The translations under genes were made by a program, and so were the position numbers. Positions 11,964-28,658 of a DNA stretch of 64,000 bases are shown here, one piece after another (the stretch's first letter is position 1; the number at the start of each line of letters is the position of its first letter). The notes under the pieces were generated by a model. It had not been told where the DNA came from. It saw nothing but the letters and a program-made list of their open reading frames with translations, and ran no database searches. Source of the stretch: Phenylobacterium sp. (GTDB taxonomy: Bacteria > Pseudomonadota > Alphaproteobacteria > Caulobacterales > Caulobacteraceae); the NCBI RefSeq assembly GCF_030697925.1, contig NZ_JAUYOJ010000126.1, positions 1 through 64,000 on the forward strand, in the 5' to 3' direction.

Positions 11964-13292
11964 ATGAGCGAGACAGGGGTCGACACCCAGGCGCCGAGGG
12001 ACATCCTGACGCCCGGCCTCACCCCGCTCGCTCGCGCCAAGGCGATCCTGGGCGGGTCGGCGGGCAATCTGGTCGAGTGGTACGACTGGTTCGCCTACTC
12101 GTCCTTCGCCCTCTATTTCGCGCCCCACTTCTTCCCCAAGGGCGATCAGACCGCCCAACTGCTGCAGGCCGCCGCCATCTTCGCCGTGGGCTTCCTGGCC
12201 CGCCCGGTGGGCGCCTGGCTGATGGGCCTCTACGCCGACCGGGCGGGGCGGAAGGCGGCCCTGACCCTCGCCGTGGCCATGATGTGCGCCGGCTCCCTGA
12301 TGATCGCGATCGCGCCCGACCATGCGATGATCGGCGCCGGGGCCCCGGTGATCCTGCTGCTCGCCCGCCTGCTGCAGGGCCTGTCGGTGGGCGGCGAATA
12401 CGGCGCCAGCGCCACCTACATGTCGGAGATGGCCGGCCGCGCCCGGCGCGGCTTCTGGTCGTCCTTCCAGTACGTGACCCTGATCATGGGCCAGCTGGTG
12501 GCGCTCGGCGTGCTGATCCTGCTGCAGCAGTTCATGGACAAGGCCGACCTGGAGGCCTGGGGCTGGCGCATCCCGTTCGTCATCGGCGCCCTGCTGGCCG
12601 TGGTGGTGTTCTGGATCCGCTTGGGCCTAGACGAGAGCGCCTCGTTCCTGGCCGCCAAGGCCGAGGGCGCGCCCCGCTCGACCACCATGCTGTTGTTCCT
12701 GAACTACCCGCGCGAGAGCGCCATGATCTTCTGCCTGACCGCCGGCGGCTCGCTCGCCTTCTATGCCTACACGACCTACATGCAGAAATTCCTGGTCAAT
12801 ACGGCGGGCTTCGCCAAGGACACCGCCACGGCGATCACCGCGGCGGCGCTCTTCCTCTACATGTGCGCCCAGCCCCTGTTCGGCTTCCTCTCCGACAAGG
12901 TGGGCCGCAACCGCACCATCGCCTTCGCCTTCGCCGGCGGCATGATCGTCACCTATCCGGTGATGTCGGCCATAGCCCGCGCGGAGGCGCCGCTGGCGGC
13001 CTTCGGCCTGATGACCTTCCTGCTGGTGATCCTGTCCGGCTACACCTCGGTCAGCGCCGTGGTGAAGGCCGAGCTCTTCCCCGCCCATGTCCGCGCCCTG
13101 GGCGTGGCCCTGCCCTACGCCATGGGCAACGCCATCTTCGGCGGCACCGCGGAGTACGCCGCCCTCTGGTTCAAGAAGGAGGGCATGGAGAGCGGCTATT
13201 ACATCTATGTCTCGGCGATCATGACGCTGGCCTTCCTGGTGGCGCTGCGGCTGCGCAACACCAACCGCGAGAGCCTGATCAACGAGGACTGA
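11964..13292 (+). CDS. MFS transporter, metabolite:H+ symporter (MHS) type
   Basis: A 442-residue inner-membrane permease with twelve predicted helices. The MHS signature is clear near the N terminus (GSAGNLVEWYDWFAYSSFALYF), as is the loop 2-3 motif GLYADRAGRKAAL, and LLQGLSVGGEYGASATYMSE in helix 4. Relatives such as KgtP and ShiA move 2-oxoglutarate, shikimate, citrate or proline/betaine with protons; the substrate here cannot be assigned. The next gene starts 4 bp after the stop, so they are probably co-transcribed. Confidence 0.9.
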   Translation: MSETGVDTQAPRDILTPGLTPLARAKAILGGSAGNLVEWYDWFAYSSFALYFAPHFFPKGDQTAQLLQAAAIFAVGFLARPVGAWLMGLYADRAGRKAALTLAVAMMCAGSLMIAIAPDHAMIGAGAPVILLLARLLQGLSVGGEYGASATYMSEMAGRARRGFWSSFQYVTLIMGQLVALGVLILLQQFMDKADLEAWGWRIPFVIGALLAVVVFWIRLGLDESASFLAAKAEGAPRSTTMLLFLNYPRESAMIFCLTAGGSLAFYAYTTYMQKFLVNTAGFAKDTATAITAAALFLYMCAQPLFGFLSDKVGRNRTIAFAFAGGMIVTYPVMSAIARAEAPLAAFGLMTFLLVILSGYTSVSAVVKAELFPAHVRALGVALPYAMGNAIFGGTAEYAALWFKKEGMESGYYIYVSAIMTLAFLVALRLRNTNRESLINED

Positions 13293-13296
13293 GCCG

Positions 13297-14004
13297 ATGA
13301 AGTTCCTGGACGCCCTCACCCCGCTCGACATCGTCGCCGTCGCGGTCTTCGCGGTCGCCTGGTTGGCCTATGAGCCGCTGCTGAAGGCCGTCGCGCGCGG
13401 CAAGGGGCTAATCAACACCGACATGACCGTCATCCGCCTGGCCTGGATGCGCAACATGGCCGGGCGCGAGAACAAGTTCATGGACGGTCAGATCCTCGGC
13501 CACACCCTGAACTCGGCGTCCTTCTTCGCCTCGTCGAACCTGATCCTGATCGCCGCGGCGGCCGGCGCCCTGTTCGGCGGCGAGCGGACCTTCGAGAGTG
13601 CGTCGAGCCTGATGGTGCTGAAAACCTCCTCGCGCCTGCTCTTCGAGGCCCAGGTGGCGCTGGTGGTCCTGACCCTGGCCCGGGGGCTGCTCGACTTCAT
13701 CTGGTCGATCCGCCAGATGAACTACTGCCTGGCGGTGATCGGCGCGGCGCCGGAGACTGAGGATCGCCCCTCGACCGAACCGTATGGCGAGGCTGCGGCC
13801 CGGCTGCTGAACCCGGCGCTGTCGTCATTCAATCGCGGCGTGCGCGGCTACTATTTCGCACTGGCGGCCGCCGGCTGGCTGTTCGGCCCGCAGGTCTTCC
13901 TGCTGCTGACCTTCCTGGCCGTGGCCCTGCTGGTGACCCGCCAGCGCCGCTCACCCGCCGCCCGCGCCATCGCCGAGGTGCGGCGCCTGCTCGACAAGCC
14001 TTAG
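13297..14004 (+). CDS. DUF599-family membrane protein
   Basis: A 235-residue inner-membrane protein with about four hydrophobic segments (residues 12-30, 75-92, 107-125, 185-215). The family features are the N-terminal WLAYEPLL and MRNMAGRENKFMDGQILGHT. It follows the MFS gene by 4 bp and its stop overlaps the stop of the convergent MmcQ gene (TTAG). The biochemical role of DUF599 is unknown. Confidence 0.85.
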   Translation: MKFLDALTPLDIVAVAVFAVAWLAYEPLLKAVARGKGLINTDMTVIRLAWMRNMAGRENKFMDGQILGHTLNSASFFASSNLILIAAAAGALFGGERTFESASSLMVLKTSSRLLFEAQVALVVLTLARGLLDFIWSIRQMNYCLAVIGAAPETEDRPSTEPYGEAAARLLNPALSSFNRGVRGYYFALAAAGWLFGPQVFLLLTFLAVALLVTRQRRSPAARAIAEVRRLLDKP

Positions 14005-14339
14005 AGGCCGAGTTCAGTCCGCTGGGCGCGGGTCAGCCTGGCCGCGACCAGGGCGTGGGCCGTCTTCAGCCAGTCGGTCACCTCGCCGTCGTCGAGACTC
14101 TCGATCTCGTCGAACGCCACCCATTTGGCCCGCGCCAGATAGGGGGCGGGCCGCGCCTGACCCGTCTCGACGAGCACTTCATAGGCCAGGTCGGTGACCT
14201 TGAGCGAGATCGCCCCGCCCAGGCCCGCTATGGCGAAGATCCGCTCACCGATCTTGAAGACCCGCGCGCCGCCCCACTGCACGACCTTGGTCGCCGCCGG
14301 CAGGGCGAGGGCCGCGGCCTCGAACTGCGAGGGCGTCAC
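14001..14339 (-). CDS. MmcQ/YjbR-family protein, distal copy
   Basis: This is the last gene of a tandem array. It starts at a GTG overlapping the stop of the previous copy (GTGA) and encodes 112 residues. The fold is that of the MmcQ/YjbR (CyaY-like, double wing) family, small proteins proposed to bind DNA. Diagnostic parts are LPAATKVVQWGGARVFKIGERIFAI, SLKVTDLAYEVL and the C-terminal DWLKTAHALVAARLTRAQRTELGL. It is about half identical by eye to its upstream neighbour. The 202-residue ORF in the track is a frame extension through the neighbour and is not the real start. Confidence 0.85.
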   Translation of the reverse strand: MTPSQFEAAALALPAATKVVQWGGARVFKIGERIFAIAGLGGAISLKVTDLAYEVLVETGQARPAPYLARAKWVAFDEIESLDDGEVTDWLKTAHALVAARLTRAQRTELGL

Positions 14340-14671
14340 GCCAGGCCCAGCTCGGCGCGCGCCTTCTTGGTCAGCTTGGAGGCGATCAGGCCGTGGGCGG
14401 TGGTCAGCCAGGAGGAGAGGTCGGCGTCGGAGACCGAAGCGGTGTCGACGGCGACCCACTGACCCTTGGCGCAATAGGGCGCCTGGCGGCCGATCCCGGT
14501 CTCGGTGAGGGCCACGAAGGCGATCTCGGTCACTTTGAACGACACCGAGACGTCGCCGGAAATGGCGAAGACCTTGCCGCCGACTTTGAAGACGTCGGAC
14601 CCGCCCCACTGGATCACCTTGGTCACCGCGGGCAGGCCCATGGCGAAAGCCTCGAGCTCGGCGCGGGTCAC
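14336..14671 (-). CDS. MmcQ/YjbR-family protein, proximal copy
   Basis: A 111-residue paralogue of the next gene, again starting at a GTG that overlaps the preceding stop. Shared landmarks are [51 protein letters not shown] and [25 protein letters not shown]. The repeated GTGA junctions imply translational coupling with msrA. The two copies differ enough to be old duplicates. Confidence 0.85.
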
Positions 14672-14739
14672 GCGGGCAGGCCCAGCTCGACCCGGGACTC
14701 GCAGGTCAGCCCGGCGGCGCCGAAAGCCTCCGGCGTCAC
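14668..14739 (-). pseudogene. Internally deleted third MmcQ/YjbR copy
   Basis: Between msrA and the proximal MmcQ copy is a 23-codon frame, [23 protein letters not shown]. Its first residues match the family start (VTPxxFxAAxL) and its last match the family end (RxELGL). Everything between, about 90 codons, is missing. Both ends keep the same GTGA overlaps as the intact copies. Confidence 0.65.
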
Positions 14740-15389
14740 GCCTGGACGCCGACGCCGATCGGGCAGGTCACGCCGGTGCCGCCCACGCCGCAATAGCCGG
14801 CCGGGTTCTTGGCCAGGTACTGCTGGTGGTAGTCCTCGGCGAAAAAGAATTCCGGGGCCTCGGCGATCTCGGTGGTGATCGGGCCATAGCCCTTGTCGGC
14901 CAGCGCCTGCTGGTAGGTTGCGAGCGAGGCCGCCGCGGCCGAGGCCTGGGCGTCGTTATACGGATAGATGCCGGACCGGTACTGGGTCCCGATGTCGTTG
15001 CCCTGGCGCATGCCCTGGGTCGGATCGTGGCCTTCCCAGAACACCTTCAGCAGGTCCTCGTAGGTCACGACGCGCGGGTCATAGACCACCAGAACCGCCT
15101 CGGTATGGCCGGTGCGGCCCGAGCAGACCTCTTCATAGGTCGGGTTGGGCGTGACGCCGTTCACATAGCCCACGGCGGTCACATATACGCCGGGGACCTG
15201 CCAGAACTTGCGCTCCACCCCCCAGAAACAGCCCATGGCGAACTGCGCCAGCTCAAATCCGTCGGGATAAGGACCCTTCAGCGGGCGGCCGTTGATGAAG
15301 TGGGTCTCCGCGGTGGGCAGCGGGCTCTGGCGGCCCGGCAGGGCGGTCGCCGTGGTGGGCAGGTCGAGGGGCTTCTTGCCGAAGAACAT
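14736..15389 (-). CDS. msrA: Peptide methionine-S-sulfoxide reductase MsrA
   Basis: A 217-residue repair enzyme that reduces the S epimer of methionine sulfoxide in proteins. The catalytic cysteine is Cys54 in [13 protein letters not shown]. Other MsrA landmarks are [47 protein letters not shown] and AEDYHQQYL. Two C-terminal cysteines ([12 protein letters not shown]) can act as recycling cysteines. No signal peptide is evident. It heads an operon with the MmcQ/YjbR array and is divergent from the TPR gene. Confidence 0.96.
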
Positions 15390-15520
15390 GATAATGGCGC
15401 CTGTTCGCGATCGGGTATCCCAACATAGGAGCAGTCGGTGGCGATTGCACTCGTCGGCGTCGGCTGACGACGGCCGGATTTCGTGGCAAGCTTGGCGAAA
15501 GTCCCTAGGGAGGACGCGAC

Positions 15521-16441
15521 ATGACGCGGTTTCGTAAGATCCTGTCAGCCGGCGCGGCGTTCAGCCTAGCGCTCGGCGGCGCGGCGTTCGCCGCGGGCGG
15601 CGGCGGTGGCGGAGGCGGCGGCATGGACATGCCCTCGGCCTCGGGCCCGACCTACGATCCGGCCGTTGAATACGCCAAGGGCGTCTCGGCCCTGAACGGC
15701 CAGAACTACAAGGACGCCGAAAAGGCCTTCAAGCGGGTGGTCGAGGCCGCACCCACCAGCGCAGAGGCCTGGCGCCTGCTGGGTGTCGCCAACCTGGCGC
15801 AGAACGATTTCAAGGGCGCCAAACGGGCTTACGAAAAGGCCGTGAAGCACGGGCCCGACGACATCGCCGCACGCCAGGGCCTGGGGCTTTCGCTGGCGGG
15901 GCTGAAGGACGCCAAGGTCCAGGAGCAACTCGACTGGCTGAAGGCCAAGTCCGACGCCTGCGCCGGGACCTGTGGCGACGCCGCGGCGCTGAAGGCGGCG
16001 CTCACCGCCGTGGAGAGCGCGAAGGCCGCCGCACCCAACGCCGCCTTGCAGAGGCCCCTGCTGTTCGCCCAGGCCGGCGACCGCGCCTATCTGCAGGCGG
16101 TCGGGCTGATCAACGAGAAGCGCTACGACGAGGCCTTGGCCTCGCTGGACCGGGCCCGCGAGGCCTTCGGCCCGCACCCCGACGTGCTCACCTACCAGGG
16201 CTATGCCTGGCGCAAGAAGGGGGCCCTCGACCGGGCCGAGACCTACTACCGCCAGGCCCTGGCCATCGCGCCTCAGCATCGTGGCGCGACCGAGTACTAT
16301 GGCGAGCTGAAGGTCGAACGCGGCGATGTGGACGGCGCCAAGGTCATGCTGGCCCGGCTCGACCGGTCCTGCGCCTATGGCTGCGCCGAGGCCGAGGAGC
16401 TGCGCCGTTGGATCGACGCCGGCGGCGAACCCACCCAGTAG
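15521..16441 (+). CDS. Secreted tetratricopeptide-repeat protein
   Basis: A 306-residue periplasmic protein. The signal peptide ends about AAFAAG and is followed by a run of nine glycines. TPR units occupy about residues 45-125 ([30 protein letters not shown] and similar) and again at about 190-270 ([26 protein letters not shown]). Paired cysteines (CAGTC; CAYGC) could form disulfides. TPRs mediate protein contacts; no partner can be named. The following cytochrome gene overlaps its 3' end, so the two are probably co-expressed. Confidence 0.85.
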
Positions 16442-17337
16442 TCGGGCTGGCCGCCGCCCTGCTTGCGGCGGGCGCCGCCCCAGCGGCGGACGTTCCGCTG
16501 GCGGCGATGCGCTGGCTGGCGCTGGGCGCCGATCCCGTAGCCCTGCTCACCCGAGAGCCGACCGAATGCCTGGCCCTGCCCACCGATCCCGCCCTGGCGC
16601 GATCGGTGGAGGTCGGCCGCGCCGCCTTTCGCACGCCGCTGCTGCTGGGCGGCCAGGCGGCGCGGGCCGGGATCAGTTGTGAGAGCTGCCACCGCGCCGG
16701 CCGCGCCAATCCCGACTTCCGCTTCCCCGGGATCTCCGGCGCGCCGGGCACCGCCGACGTCACGTCCTCGCTGTTCTCGTCGCACCGCGGCAACGGGGTG
16801 GACGATCCCAAGCCTATTCCGGATCTCTCGGGACCGCGCGCGGCGCTGAAGGTGGCGCCGGGGGATGTCGCTCCCTTCGTCCGCGGCCTGATCGTCGAGG
16901 AGTTCGACGGCCCCGAGCCCTCGCCCGCCGTACTCCAGGGCCTGGCCGACTATGTCCGCGTGCTCGGCCCGCAGGCCTGCCCCGCCGCCGCGACCCGCCC
17001 CGTCGCCGTCCAGGACCTGATGGCCGACGTCCGCCGGGCTGTCGCCGCCGCCCAAGCCGCCGAGGACGCGAAGACCGCCGTCTTCCTGGTCACCGCCGCC
17101 CGCGCGCGGCTGTTCCTGCTCGACGAGCGCTATGCCCGCCTCACTGCCGAACGCGCGGCCCTGCGCCGCGCCGATCGCGACCTGGCCGACATCGCCCAGG
17201 CCCTGCGCGAGGCCCGCCCGGACGCCCGTGCGCGACTGGCCCGGTGGCAGGCGCGGACCCCGGTCCTGGAGGCCCGCCTGCGCCGCGCCGAGCGCCGTTC
17301 GCTGTTGGATTCCAAAACCCTGGCCGCCGCGCTGTAA
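16408..17337 (+). CDS. c-type cytochrome, cytochrome-c-peroxidase-like, single haem motif
   Basis: A 309-residue exported protein starting at a TTG inside the TPR gene (34-bp overlap). The signal peptide is [18 protein letters not shown]. One haem-binding motif, CESCH, lies at residues 91-95 in a context (GRAAFRTPLLLGGQAARAGISCESCHRAG) reminiscent of di-haem cytochrome c peroxidases, but the second haem motif is not visible. The C-terminal third is Ala/Arg-rich and likely helical. It probably carries electrons in the periplasm; a peroxidase role is doubtful. Confidence 0.75.
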   Translation: MDRRRRRTHPVVGLAAALLAAGAAPAADVPLAAMRWLALGADPVALLTREPTECLALPTDPALARSVEVGRAAFRTPLLLGGQAARAGISCESCHRAGRANPDFRFPGISGAPGTADVTSSLFSSHRGNGVDDPKPIPDLSGPRAALKVAPGDVAPFVRGLIVEEFDGPEPSPAVLQGLADYVRVLGPQACPAAATRPVAVQDLMADVRRAVAAAQAAEDAKTAVFLVTAARARLFLLDERYARLTAERAALRRADRDLADIAQALREARPDARARLARWQARTPVLEARLRRAERRSLLDSKTLAAAL

Positions 17338-17409
17338 CGCCGCTTGCCCGCGTGGCCGTCATGAGTATATTGCGCGCCTTCCGCTGGGGGCCAAGGCCAC
17401 CCTCGGTGA

Positions 17410-17499
17410 GGTGAGGTGGCGGAGTGGTCGATCGCGCACGCTTGGAAAGCGTGTTTACGGGAAACCGTAACGAGGGTTCGAATCCCTCTCTCACCGCCA
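17410..17499 (+). tRNA. tRNA-Ser (anticodon GGA)
   Basis: A 90-nt type II tRNA with long variable arm. The acceptor is ggtgagg/tctcacc with discriminator G and encoded CCA. The anticodon arm reads cgcttggaaagcg with anticodon GGA, the variable arm is ttacgggaaaccgtaa, and the T arm is gagggttcgaatccctc. tRNA-Ser genes are common integration sites, and a recombinase lies next to it. Confidence 0.97.
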
Positions 17500-17863
17500 C
17501 CGACATGGCAATCGCCGCTCTCGCCAGACGGGCGGCGCTAACCGTCGAAAAATGGCCGGCTATTTCCCGCCCATCTGTAAAGGCGACAGGCTCAAAGCGC
17601 GACTTTGCGTCCAAGTCGCCGAAAACTCCCGTTGCGTCTCCGAACCGAATAGCTGCACTCCGGTTTGCCAAATTCCCGGTTTATCCGGGATTAGCTGGGA
17701 ATTTGTTCGCGCGGGAACACGCCGCCCGGAGCGGCCCACGCCGATAACCGGCATGTCGTCAACAGCTTGCAAGCCGCGTGGTAGCTGGCGCGTCAGTCGA
17801 CGCCGCTCAGCAACTGGGAATTCGAAGCCGCTTATCAGGGAAAAGCCGGGAACGCGTTCCGAT
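17500..17863. other. Intergenic DNA between tRNA-Ser and recombinase, possible attachment region
   Basis: There are 364 bp with no convincing gene. A nested palindrome lies at 17670-17704: aaattccc and gggaattt flank cccggtttatccggg. It is a candidate recombination site for the adjacent serine recombinase. I found no second copy of the tRNA 3' end in the window. Confidence 0.4.
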
Positions 17864-19518
17864 CTAAAACCCGAGCCTCTCGCGCTGATCCGCCCAGGCG
17901 AGGGGCACACCCTGCTGCATCAGCTGTTGACCGGTCAGGCCTGCCGGCTGGCGGCCCTCAAGCATCGATCGCTGGATGTCCGGCGCGAGGAACGCCAGCC
18001 CCGCCATCTTGCGCAGGTAGGACTCCGGCAAGCTGCGAGCCCTGCGCCACTGCTCAGCCGACATCGACGGCGCCGCATCACTCGCCGCTAAGGCGGCGTG
18101 CGCCTGGGCCAAAGCCTTCAGAAGCTGCCGGTCGGGCGCAGCTCGCGCGGTCGCGGCCTGGCCGTCCGGCCGCACCATCCACGTGCGTCCCCCGCGAAAC
18201 ACCGGCCGCACCGGGACCATAAGCTGCAAAGTGTGTGCGTTGCGTGTGTCGGATGCGAGCTGATCACCGGCCACCACACGCGACTGCAGCTGGCTCATCG
18301 CCGCCTTGCCGCCGCTCTGCAGGAGAACCGTGCGGTCGAGACTAAGGCGCAGGCCATGAGCTTCGACATCGATGCGCCTAAGGATCGGCAGCAAGTCAGG
18401 CCAGTCAGCGTCGGGATTGGCGCTCAGGCCACGCAGACGTTCCAGCACCAGGGCTTCAAATGCCCCAGCCGACAGGCGGCCGATGACCTCGGGGCCCGAT
18501 TTGATCGCCCGCTGCAGCGGGACCGAGACATAATAAGCATGACGCTTGCCGCTCTTGCTGTAGGCGAAGGTCGGCCCCATCCGCTGGCCCTCGGCGTCGA
18601 AGATGCGGCCCTGCAGCGGAAGCGTGGCCGCCGCGGTCGGACGAGCCCGGCGCACGCGAGCGTTGGCTGTGAGCTGAGTTTGCACGGCTTCGAAGAGGTC
18701 GCGCTCGACGATGGCCTGATGCGCGCCAGCGTAGCGCTCCTCCCCGTGCACGATCTGACCGACATAGACGCGGCTTCGCAGCAGATGGAACAACGACCCG
18801 GTGTTGAACGCAACGCCGCCCATATGCCGGCCGCTGCGGGTGGTCCAGATCTTGGACCGCTGCCCGTCGCGGGCGAGTTCATCCCGAACCGCATTGACCG
18901 ATTTTAGGCGCAGGTAGCGGCGGAAGATGTCGCGGACCTGCTCGGCTTCGGCCGAATTGACCACCAGCGCCCGCGAGGTCTGATCCTTGGGGATGTCGTA
19001 GCCTAAGGGCGGCACGCCGCCCATCCACATGCCCTTCCTCTTGGAAGCGGCGATCTTGTCGCGGATCCGCTCGCCGGTGACCTCTCGCTCGAACTGAGCG
19101 AACGATAGCAGCACGTTGAGGGTGAGACGCCCCATGCTGGTGGTGGTGTTGAAGGCCTGGGTGACCGAAACGAACGACACACCCTTGCGATCGAAGACGT
19201 CGATGATCCGGGCGAAGTCGGTCAGCGAGCGGGTGAGCCGATCGACTTTGTAGACGACCACGCAATCGATCAGGCCGCGCTCTATGTCGGCCAACAGCCG
19301 CTGCAGCGCCGGACGCTCCATGGTGCCGCCGGAGATACCGCCGTCATCGTATGCCGCCGGCCTGCACGTCCAGCCTTCGCCCGCTTGCGACTTGATGTAG
19401 GCCTCGCAGGCTTCTCGCTGGGCATGCAGACTGTTGAAGGCCTGCTCCAGCCCCTCTTCGCTGCTCTTGCGGGTGTAGACGGCGCATCGTACCCCCGGCG
19501 TTGTGGCGAGCCTCGCCA

Positions 19519-19519
<1 letters not shown>
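17864..19519 (-). CDS. Large serine recombinase (site-specific integrase/resolvase family)
   Basis: A 551-residue recombinase. The resolvase catalytic domain is N-terminal: VRCAVYTRKSSEEGLEQAFNSLHAQ with the nucleophilic serine at about 19, and VYKVDRLTRSLTDFARIIDVFDRKGVSFVSVTQAFNTTTSMGRLTLN. The PF07508 Recombinase domain follows at about 165-290 (GGVPPLGYDI, LRSRVYVGQIVHGEERYAG). The C-terminal part is DNA-binding. Such proteins drive directional integration/excision of phages and islands. Its start overlaps the stop of a DUF2924-like fragment (ATGA), the usual gene pair in alphaproteobacteria. It is the only recombinase seen here. Confidence 0.93.
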
Positions 19520-19815
<296 letters not shown>

Positions 19816-19962
19816 TTGCGGGCGGCAATTTGAGGCGGAAGCGCTGTCACGCGAGGAGGCTCAACGTCTCCGAGAAAATCGGCAAGCCACGTCACCCGTC
19901 CACTGCCCCGACTGCCATCGCACTGACATTCGCGAGGGATGGGAATAGCAGCAACTCCTGCC

Positions 19963-20667
19963 CTACTTGCCGGGCCTTCGCGGGGCCTTGGCTCGGGTCT
20001 TGGATCGTGGCCTCGCGGTCAGCGCCTTCTTTGGCGCCGGCTTTTTCGCAACCCGCGGCTTCACACGAACAGGCGCCGGCTTCTTCGGCTTGGCGGGTGC
20101 TGCACTGGCCTTTACCCGCGGCCTTGCGACGTGCTTTGCGGAAGCCGCGCCGACAGCTGGCGCGGCGTTCTTGACGCCCGCCCTCGCGTTGCGGACTGCC
20201 TGAACAACGTCGCGGAGGCCCTCCACGATGTTTTCGTAGGCATCCCCGCGGGGTACCCATTGGGCGACCGGCTTGGCGTCTCTTGGAAGCAGCTTGTAGT
20301 GAGCCATCCGAGTGTGCCGCCATTGGCACTGCTTGATCAGCGCAACGACCACATGGACCTTTCCACGCTTAGCCTTGCGAAGCGCTTGGCCGTACTCCCT
20401 CTCGAAGCAGTAGGTTGAGTGGAGATAGTCGGGACTCGCCAACGCGACAAAAACGTCCGCCGTTCGTAGGGCGCGCCGAATGTCGGGATCGATTTCGGCG
20501 CCGGCGATCATGTCGCCATCAAACCAAAATCGAACGCCTTCCCTCTTGAGCTGAGCGCAATGAATGTCGAATTGCTCCCGCGCCTTGGCGTCCTTGTGAC
20601 AATAGGAAACGAATACAAGGACTTCGTCAGTGGCAATGGTTTTTGGCACGTTTGCCTCGCCGATCAT
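19963..20667 (-). CDS. TIR-domain protein with histone H1-like basic tail
   Basis: A 234-residue protein. Residues 15-140 are a TIR domain: VLVFVSYCHKDAKAREQFD, FWFDGDMIAGAEID, ADVFVALASPDYLHSTYCFE. Glu91 sits where TIR NADases have their catalytic glutamate, so enzymatic activity is plausible. Residues about 150-234 are a low-complexity Lys/Ala/Pro/Arg tail (VKASAAPAKPKKPAPVRVKP) like histone H1 or HC1/HC2. It lies in a recombinase-linked island. A GTG at codon 7 is an alternative start. TIR proteins in such islands often serve antiphage defence; that role is inferred. Confidence 0.85.
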   Translation of the reverse strand: MIGEANVPKTIATDEVLVFVSYCHKDAKAREQFDIHCAQLKREGVRFWFDGDMIAGAEIDPDIRRALRTADVFVALASPDYLHSTYCFEREYGQALRKAKRGKVHVVVALIKQCQWRHTRMAHYKLLPRDAKPVAQWVPRGDAYENIVEGLRDVVQAVRNARAGVKNAAPAVGAASAKHVARPRVKASAAPAKPKKPAPVRVKPRVAKKPAPKKALTARPRSKTRAKAPRRPGK

Positions 20668-20867
20668 CCTTACTGTCAGCTGGGTCGCCCTTGGGCGCCC
20701 GGACGCAGGTCGTCAAAAATCGACGAGTGTGAGATCCTCGAAGGAGCACGTTGAGTCGCGATGTCAGTCAACCTTAAGCGACATTGACGCGGAGTAGGTC
20801 ACGGGCGTTGGAATTGCGCCGCGTGTAAGAGCGGGAGGGGTCGAAGACATGCTCCGACCCCGACCAG

Positions 20868-21074
20868 TCAGCACGCTATGGCGATATCGCCATCGTTGCA
20901 GAAGATGACCGCCTGATCGCCGGAGATCACCATATGAAAGCCGCGACGCTGAACCTCGGCCTTCAACGCGAACACCGAGGCGAAGCGCTCGACCCACGCG
21001 AGGCTGCGGCGGACGATGCCGCCATTGCGGGCTTGTTGAGAATTGAAGATATCTTCTATAAAACTGTTAGACAT
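20868..21074 (-). CDS. Small conserved-looking protein of unknown function
   Basis: A 68-residue ORF, MSNSFIEDIFNSQQARNGGI then VRRSLAWVERFASVFALKAEVQRRGFHMVISGDQAVIFCNDGDIAIAC. A clear aggaat ribosome-binding site and an AT-rich upstream region support expression. The alternating helix and strand pattern looks folded. I have the impression of similar short ORFs in other Caulobacterales and rhizobia, but cannot name a family. Confidence 0.65.
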   Translation of the reverse strand: MSNSFIEDIFNSQQARNGGIVRRSLAWVERFASVFALKAEVQRRGFHMVISGDQAVIFCNDGDIAIAC

Positions 21075-21308
21075 TGATTGTTATTCCTGTTCATGTTTAC
21101 ATAATTACCTCGACGGTTGACGCGAGCGTTTCACGTGAAGTTAGGTCGGAGACAATCTCCAACCTCAATCTATACTATCACTTTACTTCACCACAGTCAA
21201 GCTTTTTCGCGTAAAGGCTGCCGCTGAGTCGCTGGCGATGCTGGCCCGGCCCGAAACACCCGGGGCGACGCGAGGCCATCCCTTGGCGACGGCGAGACGA
21301 GGAAGACG

Positions 21309-22307
21309 ATGGCGTTCAGCACGCAGGCGGGGTTCATCAATCCCAACGACCAAAGGGTTCTCGGCCCCACCGGCCTCCCCGGCACCGACCACGGCCAACA
21401 GATCTATGTGCTGCAATGCCAGCGCTGCGCCCAGGTGTACGGGGCGAACGGCAGCGACATCGCCATCCGCCGCTGCCCGTCCTGTGACGGCGGCAGACCC
21501 GGTTTCGAGATCACCGCTGCGAGCGTGATCGCCGCCCCCAGGGCCGCCGAAACCAAGCGATCGCGGAATCCCAACTGGACCCGCGACGAGTTGATCCTCG
21601 CCCTCGACCTCTACTTCGACAACCCGATGGCCGACGAGCACAGCGCCGTGGTCGGCGAGCTGTCGGTGTTGCTCAATCGGCTTTGGCCGGCGACGGAGCT
21701 GGATCGCAAGACCCTGCGCAACCCGGCCGGCGTTTCGATGAAACTCGGCAACTTCCAAGGCCTCGACCCGGAATACCTGGCGAGTGGCCGCAAGGGTCTG
21801 CCGCACGGCGGCCGGCTCGAGAAGCAGATTTGGACGGAGTTCGAAGCCGATCGACCGCACTTAAAGGCTGTCGCCGGCGCCATTCGGCGGGTGCTGGAGC
21901 GAGCGCCCGAGATCGCCGCCCTGGCCGACTCAAGCGCCGACGCCGAAGCCGCCGAGGGCGCCGTGCTGACGCGGCTGCACCACTATCGGGAACGCGACCG
22001 CGATCTGCCGAACAAGCGCAAGGCGCAAGCGCTCGCGCAGCACGGCCGGCTGACCTGCGAGGCCTGCGATTTTGATTTCGCCGCCGCCTATGGCGAACGG
22101 GGCGTGGGCTTTATCGAGGTGCATCACACTAAGCCCTTGGAGACGCTGCAGCCCGGCGCGCGCACCAAGCTGAGCGAGCTCGCCGTGCTCTGCGCCAACT
22201 GCCATCGCATGGTTCACGCCAAGCGGCCGTGGCTGACGATGGAGGAGCTCAAGGCGCTGGTGGCGGCCCGGACCGCGGCGCCCGAACCTAGCTCTGATTT
22301 CGCATAA
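21309..22307 (+). CDS. HNH endonuclease, McrA-like
   Basis: A 332-residue putative nuclease. The N terminus has a zinc-ribbon motif (LQCQRCAQVYG and RRCPSCDGG). A central helical domain begins NPNWTRDELILALDLYF and continues VVGELSVLLNRL, a layout seen in McrA/ScoMcrA-type modification-dependent endonucleases. The C-terminal HNH core is CEACDFDFAAAYGERGVGFIEVHHTKPL followed by LAVLCANCHRMVH, with metal-binding cysteines and histidines intact. A gaggaag ribosome-binding site supports the ATG. With the TIR gene and recombinase beside it, a defence (type IV restriction-like) role is inferred. Confidence 0.85.
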   Translation: MAFSTQAGFINPNDQRVLGPTGLPGTDHGQQIYVLQCQRCAQVYGANGSDIAIRRCPSCDGGRPGFEITAASVIAAPRAAETKRSRNPNWTRDELILALDLYFDNPMADEHSAVVGELSVLLNRLWPATELDRKTLRNPAGVSMKLGNFQGLDPEYLASGRKGLPHGGRLEKQIWTEFEADRPHLKAVAGAIRRVLERAPEIAALADSSADAEAAEGAVLTRLHHYRERDRDLPNKRKAQALAQHGRLTCEACDFDFAAAYGERGVGFIEVHHTKPLETLQPGARTKLSELAVLCANCHRMVHAKRPWLTMEELKALVAARTAAPEPSSDFA

Positions 22308-22322
22308 CGCTAGATGGCTGAT

Positions 22323-22471
22323 GCGGTGATGTCAGGTTAGCGCCACAATTGCATTTCGGCTCCGACGCCGACGCGCAGAATTTTCAGCACCCACACAGCG
22401 ACCCCGGCAGGCCGCGAGTGGCCTAATAATCGTTTGCGTGGCCAATTGTGCGGCTAACCTGACAGCACCGC
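22323..22471. mobile_element. 149-bp MITE-like element with 29-bp terminal inverted repeats
   Basis: The left end is gcggtgatgtcaggttagcg then ccacaattg. The right end is its inverse, matching 26 of 29 positions. No transposase is present between them. A 13-bp copy of the right tip recurs at 50438-50450. No clear target duplication is seen. Confidence 0.75.
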
Positions 22472-22707
22472 GGCCGGCTTCGCCTTCCACGGTTTCTGCC
22501 AGTCCCGGCGCACTCCCACGTGCGTGTGCCGGGATTGCACAGCAACTGAGCTGGCCGGCGACCCCGACGGCTCAATACCAGCCAATTGGCCTTTCACGTG
22601 CCGCAGATCGTCTCGACCGGAGCGCGTCAGCGCACTCTTCGCTGCCTCGTGTTCAGGGCGACCGGCGCAAGGCGGTGTTGGGATTGGCGCGCTGATACGT
22701 TGCCGCT
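22472..22707. other. Intergenic DNA with a hairpin, no recognised gene
   Basis: An imperfect 11-bp stem (tcccggcgcac/gtgtgccggga, 22503-22534) is the only structure I see. It has no T tract. Short ORFs on both strands here are not recognisable. Confidence 0.4.
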
Positions 22708-23478
22708 CTAGAAGTTGACGCGGCGGGTCAACGCGCCGTCGACCACCAGATTGACGCCCGTGGTGAAGGCCGAACGGGGACTCGCCAGAAAGACCGTCGC
22801 CGCTGCGATCTCCTCCGCGGTCGCCATGCGGCCGGTCGGATTGCGCTTCAGGGTCTGCTCGAACAGCGCCGGATGGTCCGATCTGACCTGGGCCCACACA
22901 CCCCCTTCGAAGAACACCGTACCGGGCGACACGACGTTGCATCTCACCCCCTTGGCGGCGCCTTCCCGGGCGATCCCCTTGGCGAAATGCACGAGCGCCG
23001 CCTTCAGAGCGCCGTAGGCGCTCGGCGCCTCGGTCTCCGCCGCCGCTGTGGATCCGATCAGGAGGAATGCCGCGTCGCCGCAGGCCCCGGCGGCGGTTTC
23101 CAGATGCGGCCGCGCCGCCTCGAAGGTGCGCACCGCGCCAAGCGTATCGACCTCGAAGAGGCTCCGCCACGCGGCCTCGCCATTGCCCTGGACCATGGCG
23201 CTCGCGTTGCAGACGACGACATCGACGCCGCCCAGCGCCGCGGCGGCGGCCTCGACGAAGGCCTTCAAGGCGGCCCCATCGGCGATATCCACCGCCCGAC
23301 CCCACGCCCGGACGCCCTTGGCCAGCAGCGCGGTGACCGCCTCGGCCACCTGTTCCGGGTTCCGCGCGCAGATCGCCACGTCGGCGCCCTCATCCGCGAA
23401 GGCCTCCGCGATGGCGCGACCGATGCCGCGGGAGGCGCCGGTAACGATCACCGCCTTGCCCTTCAACTGCAGATCCAC
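22708..23478 (-). CDS. Short-chain dehydrogenase/reductase (SDR)
   Basis: A 256-residue classical SDR. The cofactor motif is VTGASRGIGRAIAEAF (TGxxxGIG, residues about 12-20). The NAG-like motif reads VVCNASAM rather than NNAG. The active-site Ser is in LIGSTAAAE and the catalytic Tyr/Lys are in SAYGALKAAL. The segment CNVVSPGTVFFEGGVW near 180 is the PG motif region. The enzyme oxidises or reduces an unknown alcohol/ketone with NAD(P). It lies 158 bp after the YeiH-like gene on the same strand and could be the last gene of that operon. Confidence 0.9.
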   Translation of the reverse strand: MDLQLKGKAVIVTGASRGIGRAIAEAFADEGADVAICARNPEQVAEAVTALLAKGVRAWGRAVDIADGAALKAFVEAAAAALGGVDVVVCNASAMVQGNGEAAWRSLFEVDTLGAVRTFEAARPHLETAAGACGDAAFLLIGSTAAAETEAPSAYGALKAALVHFAKGIAREGAAKGVRCNVVSPGTVFFEGGVWAQVRSDHPALFEQTLKRNPTGRMATAEEIAAATVFLASPRSAFTTGVNLVVDGALTRRVNF

Positions 23479-23636
23479 TGGCCGACTCCTTCCGTGCGAG
23501 TTCTGGCAGCTCCGGTCACCCTCGACTGCAGATATGCCTCCGGACAGGGGGCGAACGATTGCGCGTTGGTGAGGCGGCCGTGGAGGCCGACGGGATGGTC
23601 GCTCATAGGACGATCAAGGCCCCGGGACGCATTGCG

Positions 23637-24719
23637 CTAGGTCAGCCATTCGACGCCCACCAACACCAGGCCGGCGATCCACACGGTTTCCAGAACGATG
23701 GCGGCGACAGGACGCCAGCCAGCCTGGAGGACCGCCTTGAAGGACGTCTTAATCCCCAGCGCGGAGATCGCCACCACCAGGCACCAGCGCGACGCCTCGC
23801 CGGCGAGATCGCTCGCTGCCTTCGGCAGGACGCCAAGACTGTTGAGCGCCACCAGCAGCGCGAACCCAATGAGGAACCCCGGCAAGGGCGCCGCGGTCGG
23901 GCCACCGACGCGACGACGCGCCATGACGGCGGCGATCGCAAAGACGACCGGGAGCAGCAGCGCCACGCGCAGAAGCTTCACATAGGTCGCCGTGTCGCCC
24001 GTGACCTGGGAGACCATATATCCGGCGCCCACGACCTGGGCGACGTCATGGATGGTGCCGCCGAGGAAGAGCCCGGCGCGAACCTCGCCGAGCCCCAGTG
24101 CGCTGACCAGGACCGGGTAGACGATCATGGCCACCGTCGACAGCGTGGTCACCACGACGACCACGAGGATGACGTCGCGCTCGCTCTCCTTGGTTTTTGG
24201 CAGAATCGAAGCAATGGCGAGCGCCGCCGACGCCCCGCAGATGCCGACCGACCCCCCGGACAGAAGACCGAAGGACGGGCCCAGGCGAAGGAGCCTGCCC
24301 AGCACGAGACCCAGGCCCAGCGTCGTCGTCACACCAACCACCACCATCACGATGGGGGTCCAGCCGAGGCTCATGATCTGTTCGATGGTGATCCGCGCGC
24401 CGAGCAGGGCCACCCCCGTGCGGAGCACCGTCCTGGAGGCAAACTCCACGCCTCGGATGCAGCGGCCCTCCTCGTGCAGGAAGTGGAACGCCATCCCGAA
24501 GGTCAGGGCGAACAGCATCACCGGCGCGCCGTAGTGCTGCGACAGCCAAACCGCGGCGATGGCGATGACGCTCGCGACGAGGAGGCCCGGGTAAGCCGCC
24601 AGGAACAGGGCGACGACCCGGTTCCCCGGAGGTCGGGTGGGAGGCAGTCCCTCCATACTGTCCCAAGTCGTGGCCAGATGCGCGGCCTCGGCATCGGTCT
24701 TGAGCCAGCTTGGGTCCAT
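23637..24719 (-). CDS. YeiH-family (UPF0324) membrane transporter, putative sulfate exporter family
   Basis: I take the ATG giving MDPSWLKTDAEAAHL, 4 bp after the upstream stop; the product is then 360 residues. About ten hydrophobic helices are visible. Family landmarks are EFASRTVLRTGVALLGARIT, SVGICGASAALAIA and GLFLGGTIHDVAQVVGAGY. The family is commonly labelled putative sulfate exporter, although direct evidence is thin. Being the next gene after a BisC-like S-oxide reductase, sulfite/sulfate or small-organosulfur export is a reasonable inference. Confidence 0.85.
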   Translation of the reverse strand: MDPSWLKTDAEAAHLATTWDSMEGLPPTRPPGNRVVALFLAAYPGLLVASVIAIAAVWLSQHYGAPVMLFALTFGMAFHFLHEEGRCIRGVEFASRTVLRTGVALLGARITIEQIMSLGWTPIVMVVVGVTTTLGLGLVLGRLLRLGPSFGLLSGGSVGICGASAALAIASILPKTKESERDVILVVVVVTTLSTVAMIVYPVLVSALGLGEVRAGLFLGGTIHDVAQVVGAGYMVSQVTGDTATYVKLLRVALLLPVVFAIAAVMARRRVGGPTAAPLPGFLIGFALLVALNSLGVLPKAASDLAGEASRWCLVVAISALGIKTSFKAVLQAGWRPVAAIVLETVWIAGLVLVGVEWLT

Positions 24720-24723
24720 GCGG

Positions 24724-27027
24724 TCAGTCCTGGATCTCGATCTGGGGCGACTCATAGGCTGCAATTGGCGGCGCAACGCCGTCGAAGCGGCGCACATCCG
24801 CCAGGCAGGTCTGCGCGGAGCATCCCTGCGCGAATGAGGATGTGCCGCGATCCAAGGTCAGGCTGTTCGGGTTGGCGTTGCGGTCCAAGCCGTCGGGCGC
24901 CGGGTCGTACCATCCGCCCGTGGCGAGGCGGATGACCCCCGTCATGATGTCATCGCTGACGATCGCGCCGGCCAGGCAGCGCCCGCGATCGTTGAACACT
25001 TCCACCAGGTCGCCGTCGGCGATCCCACGCGCCGCCGCGTCCGCCGGATTGAGGTAGATCGGCTCCCGCCCCGCCACCTTGCCGGCGCGGCTGTAGGGGC
25101 TGTGATCGAGTTGGCTGTGGAGCCGCCGCCTAGGCTGGTCCGACAGCAGGTGCAGGGGGTAGGCCTTTGCCTTCTCGTGCCCGAGCCACTCGAAAGGCTC
25201 TAGCCAGACCGGGTGACCCGGACAATCCGGCAGGCCGAAGCCGGCGATCGTTTCGGAATAAATCTCGATCTTGCCTGAGGGAGTCCGCAAGCGGTTGCCA
25301 TCGGGGTCGGTGCGGAACGCCTCGTGCATGACGATGGGTCGGTCGTGACCGGCGAGGTCTACAACCCCTTGCGCCCAGAAGGCGTCGAAGTCGGGCAGGT
25401 CGATCCCGACCGCCCGAGCCCGCGGAAGGTTCTCAGCGTAGATGCGCCGCAGCCAGCCTGGCGCGTCCAGGCCCTCCGTGAAGCTGTCCGCTACGCCAAG
25501 CCTCGCAGCCAGGTCGGCGAATATCCGATAGTCGTCGCGCGCCTCCCCGAAGGGCTCGACCGCCTTGCGCATAGCCAGGATGTAGCCCTCGCGGCCCGCG
25601 AAGCCGATATCGTCGCGTTCCAACGAGGTTGTCGCCGGCAGAACGATGTCGGCGAAGCGCGCCGTCGGCGTCCAGTACTGCTCGTGGACCACAATCGTCT
25701 CGGGCCGCGACCAGGCGTCGGTCAGCCGGTTCAGATCCTGGTGGTGGTGGAATGGATTGCCGCCAGCCCAGTACACGAGCCGGATCTCGGGGTAGCGATA
25801 CACCCCGCCCTGGTAGGTGAAACTCTCGCCTGGCTTCAGCAGCATGTCCGCGATCCGCGCGACAGGGATGAAGTCGGGGATGGGGTTCTGACCTTGCGGG
25901 AACACCGGGCCGGGCATGTGGACATGTGAGCTGCCCATGGTGTTGGCGGCGCCGTAGCCCAGCCCGTAGCCGCCGCCAGGCAGGCCCACCTGGCCCACCA
26001 TGCTGGACAGGGCGACCAGCATCCAGAACGGCTGTTCGCCGTGTGCCGCGCGCTGCAGGGCCCAGGCGGCGTTGATCATCGTCCGCGCGGACAGCATCTC
26101 CCGCGCCAGGCACCCGATGCGGTCGGCCGGAACGCCGGTGATCTCCGCGGCCCACTCGGGGGTCTTCGGGACGCCATCGGTATCGCCGAGCAGATACGGC
26201 AGGAAGCGATCGAAGCCCGCGGTGCAGCGGTCGATGAAACCGCGATCGAACCGGTTGTCCTGCTGGATCGCGTAAGCGAGCCCGAGCATCAGGGCCGTGT
26301 CGGTGTTCGGGCGGATGGGAATCCATTCCACCTCGCCACCGGTGACCAGGTTGTCCCGCACGGGGCTGATGTTAACGAAGCGAACGCCCGCCCTGGCCAT
26401 GCGCTGAAGGCCCTCCGCCAGCCGATGCCGTCCGGGGCCGCCAGGCGACACCTGGCCGTTCTTCACCGGAACGCCGCCGAAGCCCACGAAGAGCTCGGTA
26501 TGCTCGGCCAGGACGCTCCAGGAGGTATGCGAGGCGTTGGACTCGTCCATCGAGGCGGCGATGTACGGCATCAGGGCCCGCCCGGCGCCGAGGCTATAGG
26601 TGTCCACGTGCCGGACGTACCCGCCCCACTGGTTGAGGAAGCGATGCACCTGGCTCTGCGCATGGTGAAACCGCCCGGCGCTGGACCACCCATAGGAACC
26701 GCCAAAGACCGCGGTGTTCCCGAACGCCGCCCGCACACGCCGCAGTTCCGCCGCGACAAGATCCAGAGCGACGTCCCAGTCGACTTCGACGAAGGCTTCG
26801 CAACCGCGGGTCCGCGGCGCGGCGCCTGGGCCCTGCTCAAGCCAGCTGCGCCGCACGGCCGGACGGGTGACCCGCAGGCGCTGGACCTCGGGCTCGAGTT
26901 GATCCAGGCCGATCGGCGACGGGTCGGGGTCGAGGCTCCAGGGATGCAGGGTCGGTCGCTGGCCGCGAGCCCCCGCCTCAACTTCGTAGAGGCCCCAGTG
27001 CGCGGCCGAATAGGTGCGCGCGCTCAT
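24724..27027 (-). CDS. Molybdopterin-dependent oxidoreductase, BisC/TorA-like (S- or N-oxide reductase)
   Basis: The true start is the ATG overlapping the esterase stop (ATGA), giving 767 residues that begin MSARTYSAAHWGLYEVEA. This is the DMSO-reductase family without an N-terminal FeS cluster. The molybdenum-ligating serine is probably in GGSYGWSSAGRFHHAQSQ (about residue 120). Other landmarks are GGNPFHHHQDLNRL, TSLERDDIGFAG and the C-terminal RATGGWYDP-type loop with SFAQGCSAQTC. No Tat signal is visible, so it is likely cytoplasmic like BisC. It should reduce an S- or N-oxide, or run in reverse; the substrate is unknown. Confidence 0.88.
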   Translation of the reverse strand: MSARTYSAAHWGLYEVEAGARGQRPTLHPWSLDPDPSPIGLDQLEPEVQRLRVTRPAVRRSWLEQGPGAAPRTRGCEAFVEVDWDVALDLVAAELRRVRAAFGNTAVFGGSYGWSSAGRFHHAQSQVHRFLNQWGGYVRHVDTYSLGAGRALMPYIAASMDESNASHTSWSVLAEHTELFVGFGGVPVKNGQVSPGGPGRHRLAEGLQRMARAGVRFVNISPVRDNLVTGGEVEWIPIRPNTDTALMLGLAYAIQQDNRFDRGFIDRCTAGFDRFLPYLLGDTDGVPKTPEWAAEITGVPADRIGCLAREMLSARTMINAAWALQRAAHGEQPFWMLVALSSMVGQVGLPGGGYGLGYGAANTMGSSHVHMPGPVFPQGQNPIPDFIPVARIADMLLKPGESFTYQGGVYRYPEIRLVYWAGGNPFHHHQDLNRLTDAWSRPETIVVHEQYWTPTARFADIVLPATTSLERDDIGFAGREGYILAMRKAVEPFGEARDDYRIFADLAARLGVADSFTEGLDAPGWLRRIYAENLPRARAVGIDLPDFDAFWAQGVVDLAGHDRPIVMHEAFRTDPDGNRLRTPSGKIEIYSETIAGFGLPDCPGHPVWLEPFEWLGHEKAKAYPLHLLSDQPRRRLHSQLDHSPYSRAGKVAGREPIYLNPADAAARGIADGDLVEVFNDRGRCLAGAIVSDDIMTGVIRLATGGWYDPAPDGLDRNANPNSLTLDRGTSSFAQGCSAQTCLADVRRFDGVAPPIAAYESPQIEIQD

Positions 27028-28619
27028 TGCGGCGCGGGCGGCGCTGTTGTCGGCTCGGCCACGGTGCGCACCATGTCGCCCCGGTGGTTGTCGACCACAC
27101 GCATCGCGTTGTCGAAGACCAGGGTCGCGCGACGCTGGCCATCGTAGGCGGGCCACGCCGGGATGAGTGCGTTGTTGGGATCTCCGGTCTTGGCGAAAGC
27201 CACGAGCGAGGCGACCATGCGGTCGACCATCAGGCGGCCCTCCGCATGGCCGGAGCCGCAGGCCGGGCTGCGATAGAGGCCGAAGGACGCGTCGAGGTCT
27301 TCCGCGTGGAAGGCGCCGTAGCGACGGTCATAGGCGTCGCTGACCCAGTCCCACTCGTAGAGGTAGACCGGCGCCGCGCCGAGCGCCGCCTTGCGGTGAG
27401 CCTGCAGCAGGGTGACGCCGCGCGTCAGGTCGGTGTAGGCCTTGCCCTGGATCAGGAACGCCGGCTCATCGGGACTCTCCTGGCGATAGGCGGCGAGGAT
27501 GGCCTCCGCGCGATCCCCCCAGGTCTGGCGGAACACCGCCACGACCCCGGCGTCGTCCACATCGAAGTTCTCGAAGAAGTTCGATCGGTCGTGCAGCGTG
27601 GTGCCCACGATCATCGGGATGGCGCCCGACACGGCCGGAGCCGAAGACGCGAACGGCGCCTCGGGCAGCACCTGCCCGTCGACGACGGGCCGGAAATCGC
27701 CCACCGCTGCCTGCGCCTCGAGGATCTCCTGCCAGCTCCGCTTCCGGATATCGACGGCACGGTCGTTGCCGAGCCCCAGGCGCAGCAGCAGCCGCTCGGC
27801 CTGGCCGGCGCCTTCGTCCCGGGTCCAGGCGCCGACCGGCGGCGGCGACTGGGCGACGGCGCGGTGGAACAGCTTCACCGCCGCAGGAGCCCCCATCAAT
27901 GTGCTGACCTTGGATCCTCCGCCGGACTGGCCGAAGATCGTGACCCGGTCCGGGTCGCCGCCAAACCGGCCGATGTTGTCGCGCACCCATTCGAGGGCGG
28001 CGACCATATCGAGGACGCCGCAAACACCGCCGCTGGCGAACTCGGGCCCACCGACCTCCGCCAACGCAAGGTATCCCAGGGCGCCCAGGCGGTGGTTTAC
28101 GGTCACGACCACGACATTCCCGGCCCGGGCAAGCTGCGCCCCGTCGTACATCGGCGCGTTGCCGGAACCGGTCGTCCAGCCGCCGCCATGGAACGCGACC
28201 AGCACCGCCCGGCCGGCTCCGTCGCTCACGCCCGGCGTCCAGATGTTGAGGTTCAGGCAGTCTTCGCCCATCCCGCCGGGACCGACATGGGCGTCCCAGT
28301 TGATCAGCATGGAGTACTCGTAGGCCAGGTCCATCGGGACCTGCGGGGAGACCTGGCCGTAGCCGAAGCAGTCACGAACCCCGCTCCAGGCCGCCCGCTT
28401 CTGCGGCGGCATGTAACGGTTGGATCCTGCCGTGGAGGCGCCGTACGGAACGCCCTTGAACTGCTTGATGTCGCCGTTGGCGATGCCCTGGACGCGCCCG
28501 GCGGTGGTCTCCACGGTCCAGAAAAGCTGGCCGCCCGCCCGCCCCATTCTTGCGGCGGCACCCGCCGCTTCAGGCAACCGGAACGGGTCCTTGGGCGACC
28601 GCTCGGATTCATCCGCCAT
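27024..28619 (-). CDS. Type-B carboxylesterase
   Basis: A 531-residue alpha/beta-hydrolase of the carboxylesterase type B family. Landmarks are GVPYGASTAGSNRYMPPQ, GEDCLNLNIWTPG, the oxyanion loop FHGGGWTTGSG, and the nucleophile elbow VTIFGQSGGGSKV. The catalytic His is probably in GAFHAEDLDASFG. No signal peptide is evident, so it may be cytoplasmic. It lies 39 bp after the TonB receptor and overlaps the BisC-like gene, so the three look like one operon: uptake, ester cleavage, then oxide reduction. Confidence 0.9.
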   Translation of the reverse strand: MADESERSPKDPFRLPEAAGAAARMGRAGGQLFWTVETTAGRVQGIANGDIKQFKGVPYGASTAGSNRYMPPQKRAAWSGVRDCFGYGQVSPQVPMDLAYEYSMLINWDAHVGPGGMGEDCLNLNIWTPGVSDGAGRAVLVAFHGGGWTTGSGNAPMYDGAQLARAGNVVVVTVNHRLGALGYLALAEVGGPEFASGGVCGVLDMVAALEWVRDNIGRFGGDPDRVTIFGQSGGGSKVSTLMGAPAAVKLFHRAVAQSPPPVGAWTRDEGAGQAERLLLRLGLGNDRAVDIRKRSWQEILEAQAAVGDFRPVVDGQVLPEAPFASSAPAVSGAIPMIVGTTLHDRSNFFENFDVDDAGVVAVFRQTWGDRAEAILAAYRQESPDEPAFLIQGKAYTDLTRGVTLLQAHRKAALGAAPVYLYEWDWVSDAYDRRYGAFHAEDLDASFGLYRSPACGSGHAEGRLMVDRMVASLVAFAKTGDPNNALIPAWPAYDGQRRATLVFDNAMRVVDNHRGDMVRTVAEPTTAPPAPQ

Positions 28620-28658
28620 GCTCGACTCCCGATGGCCGCGGGTCGCAGCCGGCCCGCT

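Follow-up and report, generated by a model that had tools for sequence, protein, structure and literature searches.

Enzymes with TIR domains play a central part in immunity from bacteria to plants and animals, and how the bacterial ones are switched on is being established one system at a time. Oligomerisation activates TIR NADases (PMC13174449). In SpbK and Swarozyc, the TIRs cluster on phage portals (PMC12847820, PMC13174449). The SpbK authors state that clustering switches TIR NADases on, and they name phage nucleic acids as one of the suitable platforms (PMC12847820). In the open-licence literature, searched mostly at the level of titles and abstracts, no description was found of a TIR/zinc-ribbon pair or of a TIR with an H1-like tail.

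The window analysed here is a stretch of 64,000 nucleotides from Phenylobacterium sp. An earlier note on it had singled out an ORF encoding a TIR domain fused to a histone H1-like tail, and had missed a conserved partner gene next to it, which encodes a zinc ribbon of 54 residues. The two genes are best explained as a mobile NADase defence module of Alphaproteobacteria made of a TIR protein and a zinc ribbon, and I give this explanation as a whole a probability of about 0.5. The features of the locus are listed below.

17410..17499 (+): tRNA-Ser(GGA), at the left boundary of the variable region
17864..19519 (-): large serine recombinase, Resolvase plus Recombinase (PF00239 6.4e-38, PF07508 8.2e-14)
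19784-19948 (+): zinc ribbon of 54 residues with four cysteines, FmdB/Zn_ribbon_8-like (tblastn, alignment, upstream sequence)
19963..20667 (-): gene of the TIR-tail protein, 234 residues (ORF listing, PF13676, PADLOC ThsB PDLC00420, fold search); start at the ATG at 20667, alternatively at a GTG at residue 7
20194..20622 (-): TIR domain, residues 16-158 (profile, sequence, model, fold matches)
20395-20397 (-): codon of Glu91 of the TIR domain
19966..20190 (-): polybasic tail, residues 160-234 (composition, low-confidence model)
21309-22307: HNH nuclease, also in the variable region; its PADLOC matches are of type II/IV restriction-like kinds

The ORF at 19963-20667 on the minus strand, which encodes 234 residues, indeed contains a TIR domain. 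It matches PF13676 (TIR_2) at E=2.7e-15 (57.4 bits against a curated cut-off of 28) and also PF01582, and phmmer matched it to the solved TIR domains of L6, RUN1, and Cat1. The PADLOC profile ThsB PDLC00420 matches at E=1.7e-32 in the TIR part only, where window residues 18-182 align with model positions 4-166 of 319. In an AlphaFold model built with 11 distant TIRs, residues 16-162 adopt the TIR fold. A fold search of the PDB with this model returned 27 chains at E<=1e-3, all of them TIR-domain entries, and AbTir reached a TM score of 0.74 by target length. Glu91, which had been proposed as the likely catalytic residue, coincides in HMMER alignments with the catalytic glutamate of both L6 and Cat1, and it is invariant in one TIR alignment and nearly invariant in another. 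The gapless alignment with RUN1 puts Glu91 one residue off; the assignment is supported by the relative in genome G430, which has one residue fewer there (CQLEY). Judging from the TIR fold and Glu91, the protein is likely a catalytic NADase that cleaves NAD+. A scan of genome contigs with the window TIR protein alone found only distant TIRs. Two further TIR genes were observed in the same genome, one with a Pro/Ala-rich linker and an apparent transmembrane stretch (L001, contig G000:C132), and one of the type with a C-terminal domain and without a zinc ribbon (L003/L017, G000:C28). A STALD search of this genome gave no match, and control genomes likewise gave none.

The Lys/Ala/Pro/Arg-rich sequence after the TIR domain was also borne out. 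Residues 160-234 have a net charge of +24 without a single Asp or Glu, and the 75 residues include 24 Lys or Arg (32% K+R), 27% Ala, and 16% Pro. The pLDDT is about 46-69 over most of this length, as in a disordered region. The tail thus has the features of linker-histone tails: rich in Lys, Ala, and Pro, free of acidic residues, and disordered in appearance. Is the tail an artefact of reading GC-rich DNA in a wrong frame? When the best 75-residue stretch of each ORF was compared, the TIR-tail ORF was the richest in lysine (13) among the 192 window ORFs of at least 100 residues. In the other most charged stretches, arginine abounds and lysine is scarce or absent, which is what wrong-frame reading of GC-rich DNA gives. 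The lysine content and the homologues rule out this origin.

A TIR domain followed by a basic tail is a recurrent architecture, kept in all four closest relatives found. In the following, tail identities refer to aligned positions relative to the window tail. The tail of G1098 has 84 residues and a net charge of +26 (31% identity in the tail versus 64% in the TIR domain), and that of Methylorubrum extorquens CM4 has 75 residues and a net charge of +17 (26% versus 73%). The tail of a Polymorphobacter plasmid has 60 residues and a net charge of +13 (17% versus 40%), while that of G430 has a net charge of +8 over the aligned part of a longer tail (28% versus 43%). Acidic residues are nearly absent from all five tails, that of the window included. 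Since the tail identity is 17-31% against 40-73% in the TIR domain, it is the composition that has been kept, not the sequence. The N-terminus is basic too in the relatives from the Polymorphobacter plasmid and G430. The earlier note had counted a lack of the tail in most homologues against its reading. In the near clade, the tail is universal; in the wider TIR family, a C-terminal domain of about 150 residues stands where the window branch has the tail.

The zinc ribbon was located by tblastn with the CM4 zinc-ribbon protein (53 residues), to which it is 55% identical. A Shine-Dalgarno-like AAGGTGG lies just 5′ of the gene, which is convergent (tail-to-tail) with the TIR gene, with 14 bp between them. 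In an alignment of 16 members, the four cysteines are invariant and the RTDIRxGW end is mostly conserved. Zn_ribbon_8 is the best Pfam match of the window zinc ribbon (1.8e-5, 25.1 bits versus a curated cut-off of 34.4), and TIGR02605 matches a relative at 8e-5, below its curated cut-off of 31.3 bits. The structure model is of moderate confidence (pLDDT 80), and a fold search with it gave no significant match. At L043-L046 and in related rhodobacteral plasmids, the zinc-ribbon gene is absent from the gene tables and overlaps the TIR stop by 8 bp. The zinc ribbon is a candidate new family of TIR partners, mostly unannotated.

Is the zinc ribbon always accompanied by a TIR gene? I searched with zinc-ribbon queries alone, so that a TIR was not presupposed. 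The search gave 28 loci, of which nine are plasmid records and 19 are genome loci, and a TIR gene adjoins the zinc ribbon in all 28 (intact in 25; broken in NGR234, G715, and G769). In eight of the nine plasmid records, the zinc-ribbon match falls on or beside an intact TIR gene; five of these loci were read directly and three taken from annotation. In the ninth, NGR234, the zinc ribbon is joined by the 8-bp overlap to the surviving end of the TIR C-terminal domain. An intact adjacent TIR gene was found in 17 of the 19 distinct genome loci. Of the 19, 16 had not seeded the zinc-ribbon alignment when they were found. By sample, there were two complete members in 385 genomes of the class (one partial match inside a longer ORF was excluded from the count), eight loci in 249 genomes of one family, 10 loci in nine of 200 genomes of the order, and, in 399 genomes of the phylum, the window zinc ribbon and two copies in G1098. 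The first pass of the genome search scores only the best candidates of each genome, and misses are possible, independently of the neighbours. Since a genome of about 4 Mb has a handful of TIR genes, I estimate the chance of TIR adjacency at well under 1% per locus. Furthermore, the TIR and zinc-ribbon distances correlate over 19 loci (Mantel r=0.55, p=0.0001, with the zinc ribbon of G1098 copy b paired with its neighbouring second TIR). The linkage of the zinc ribbon to TIR genes, beside which alone it was found, is practically certain. Most TIRs of the wider family have no zinc ribbon.

As for the two broken genome loci, the TIR gene of G769 is split by an insertion sequence with the downstream zinc ribbon intact (L066:3248-7165), while G715 has an intact zinc ribbon and a TIR C-terminal remnant separated by an insertion sequence (L065).

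In 12 of the 20 tabulated loci (ARRANGEMENTS), the TIR gene is followed on the same strand by the zinc ribbon with an overlap of 8 bp, which reads ATGNNTRA or a variant with a GTG or TTG start. This constant overlap hints that the two proteins are made in balanced amounts, as subunits of a complex would be. In CM4, the zinc ribbon precedes the TIR gene on the same strand, 2 bp apart by annotation. The pairs are convergent in the window (14 bp), G624 (0 bp), G602 (4-bp overlap), and G1098 copy b (2 bp). Divergent pairs were seen in G115, G1175, and G1178, which also have the most diverged zinc ribbons. Copy b of G1098, in which the zinc ribbon is convergent with a TIR-tail gene, comes closest to the window module as a whole. 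Because the orientation varies, the linkage is not mere operon inertia. The zinc ribbon of G602 overlaps a TIR of PF10137 (Cap12/PycTIR type, PDC-S35 in PADLOC), the only partner from a different TIR family.

A tandem arrangement was seen in G1098 (L079:5433-7896), where a gene for a TIR with a C-terminal domain is followed by a protein of about 160 residues, a zinc ribbon, and the convergent basic-tail TIR; at a distance of 44 kb, there is another TIR/zinc-ribbon pair (L080). Proteins of one family of about 150-160 residues (LSPSEFxxG...AKPLSLxLP...) were found directly after genes for TIRs with a C-terminal domain, whether or not a zinc ribbon is present (L044:6248-6703, L055:1809-2291, L047:31504-31989, and L079:6415-6900). 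Other loci have different proteins of about 170 residues in the same slot, and two tested proteins from this slot had no match in Pfam. It is possible that the protein of about 150-160 residues is a third, variable component.

The earlier note placed the gene in an island bounded by recombinases and containing an HNH nuclease. The left edge stood up, with the serine recombinase, the tRNA-Ser, and the end of homology at 17502, although the tRNA-Ser edge is drawn solely from the end of homology to one relative of the genus, G024. A right edge and att repeats were searched for and none was found. The large serine recombinase is not a conserved partner of the pair; it is probably the mobility gene of the island and lies outside the module. 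The HNH nuclease was dismissed as a partner, as none lies beside the pair in the two closest relatives that have it, CM4 (L030) and G1098 (L071/L079). Just past the HNH gene, there is a 29-nt inverted repeat (22323-22351 and 22443-22471, 90%, 91 nt between the arms), possibly an island edge or a small mobile element. The module is carried on plasmids and islands, and its neighbourhoods are mobile, with proven defence genes in few of them. About 1 kb from the pair of G223 is a protein whose start resembles DUF4062 (the Swarozyc type of TIR-like NADase; L068:3904-4908), a likeness judged by eye, without an NCBIfam match. No relatives of the window TIR or the zinc ribbon were found in the phage collection. 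IMG/VR gave no match for the window TIR and two weak partial matches for the zinc ribbon, in stretches with no TIR match.

How might the module work? The TIR would be an enzyme that consumes NAD+, inactive as a monomer and active once several TIRs cluster. The zinc ribbon would bind the TIR domain and set its threshold, either as a sensor or adaptor or by holding it back. Zinc-ribbon partners are TIRs with a C-terminal domain, TIRs with a basic tail, and once a TIR of unrelated architecture. The TIR fold is all that these partners share, so the simplest binding site for the zinc ribbon, if it binds its partner at all, would be the TIR domain. In the branch of the window, the usual C-terminal domain would have given way to the polybasic tail, which would bring TIRs together on a polyanion; nucleic acid of the phage or the host is the most likely one. 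The clustered TIRs would then deplete NAD+, and the infected cell would stop. A role of the module in phage defence is likely, and nearly as likely is direct regulation of the TIR by the zinc ribbon. A basic tail that looks disordered and is free of acidic residues could plausibly collect TIRs on a polyanion, and I lean somewhat towards the view that the tail binds nucleic acid. The zinc ribbon is absent from two basic-tail relatives, those of the Polymorphobacter plasmid and G430. Thus, the tail and the zinc ribbon are separable, and, as these two relatives live without it, there is a slight lean to the zinc ribbon as a sensor or adaptor. Against the explanation as a whole count these two relatives, the many TIRs of the wider family that have no zinc ribbon, the scarcity of proven defence genes around the module, and the moderate confidence of the zinc-ribbon model with its lack of a significant fold match. 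More speculatively, the zinc ribbon may be a general TIR regulator which acts via the TIR fold and is exchangeable among TIR families and C-terminal architectures, while the sensor of this branch may have been reduced to a histone-like tail with nucleic acid as the platform for TIR clustering.

Alternatively, the pair may be a toxin-antitoxin system. In this case, the NADase activity of the TIR would be intrinsic and toxic, and the zinc ribbon would hold it in check as an antitoxin or inhibitor until a phage attacks or the element is lost and the TIR is set free; the tail would be secondary. The small partner dedicated to TIRs, the fixed stoichiometry given by the 8-bp translational overlap, and the carriage on plasmids all agree with this. 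Yet the two TIR-tail relatives without the zinc ribbon indicate that it is not always needed for survival, and I regard a toxin-antitoxin system as rather unlikely. The zinc ribbons that outlive broken TIR genes in G715 and G769 fit a toxin-antitoxin system and the defence module alike. A Thoeris-like scheme, in which a ThsB-type TIR sensor would signal by a cyclic ADP-ribose to an effector whose gene lies elsewhere, takes its support from PADLOC, which files the wider TIR family as ThsB. No ThsA-type gene (SIR2-SLOG, TM-macro) was evident around the module in the window, at the CM4 locus, or in G1098, and I regard such signalling as very unlikely.

The tail may also be something other than a nucleic-acid anchor: it may bind membranes or ribosomes, or be a weakly constrained, flexible basic linker. 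Its barely conserved sequence (17-31% identity) and varying length, as well as the basic N-terminus of two relatives, would suit such a role. However, the nearly acid-free Lys/Ala/Pro make-up of all five tails resembles linker-histone-like tails, and in tails drifting without constraint one would expect acidic residues to have appeared, so this role is unlikely. The pairing in G602 may be either an exchange of partners or a leftover. If the original TIR was lost and the present neighbour is a coincidence, the zinc ribbon would serve the PF13676 family only. TIRs of the PF10137/PDC-S35 type are common without the zinc ribbon: they occur in 1121 plasmid records but in none of the nine zinc-ribbon plasmid records, and four other rhodobacteral loci of this type lack it. 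Nevertheless, the genes overlap tail-to-tail by 4 bp, and the nearest zinc-ribbon relative, in G624, is equally convergent with a PF13676 TIR. Coincidence is possible but somewhat doubtful.

The TIR/zinc-ribbon pair is probably an undescribed TIR-based anti-phage system. A tiny partner that is found only with TIRs, and that is missing from the annotation of its rhodobacteral plasmids, would give a new handle on TIR control. The prediction is an interaction between the zinc ribbon and the TIR domain that shifts the NADase activity either upwards or downwards. The tail, in turn, lets one ask if nucleic acid alone serves as a clustering platform.

Among known loci, plasmid pCMU01 of M. extorquens CM4 has a TIR protein with a basic tail (WP_012606067) that is 73% identical to the window protein in the TIR domain, and the adjoining gene encodes a zinc ribbon (WP_012606068) that is 55% identical to that of the window. 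The CM4 pair differs in that both genes are on the same strand with the zinc ribbon first. ThsB of Thoeris (PDLC00420) resembles the window protein in the TIR half, while the C-terminal half of the window protein is a basic tail instead. The ThsB profile matches proteins with the C-terminal domain over its full length (7e-147 for that of NGR234; 5e-68 for the zinc-ribbon-linked type). Unlike Thoeris, the window module has no adjacent ThsA and has the zinc ribbon as an extra partner. The PF10137 TIRs of CBASS (Cap12), Pycsar (PycTIR), and PDC-S35 are touched by one zinc ribbon, that of G602, which overlaps such a gene; the PDC-S35-type relatives examined lack it. No nucleotide cyclase was recognised in the genes read around the G602 TIR. 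Likewise, no cyclase or Argonaute partner was seen among the ORFs read at 12000-30000 of the window and at the loci of its closest relatives, part of which were searched with profiles. The window zinc ribbon shares the CxxC...CPxC layout with FmdB-type ribbons (Zn_ribbon_8, TIGR02605) and differs from them in its longer middle, its distinct RTDIRxGW end, and its linkage to TIRs. With the single-protein NADases SpbK and Swarozyc (DUF4062), the module is expected to have in common the clustering of TIRs by a phage component and the loss of NAD+. SpbK and Swarozyc sense portals via an auxiliary domain, whereas the module of the window has a disordered polybasic tail and a separate zinc ribbon.
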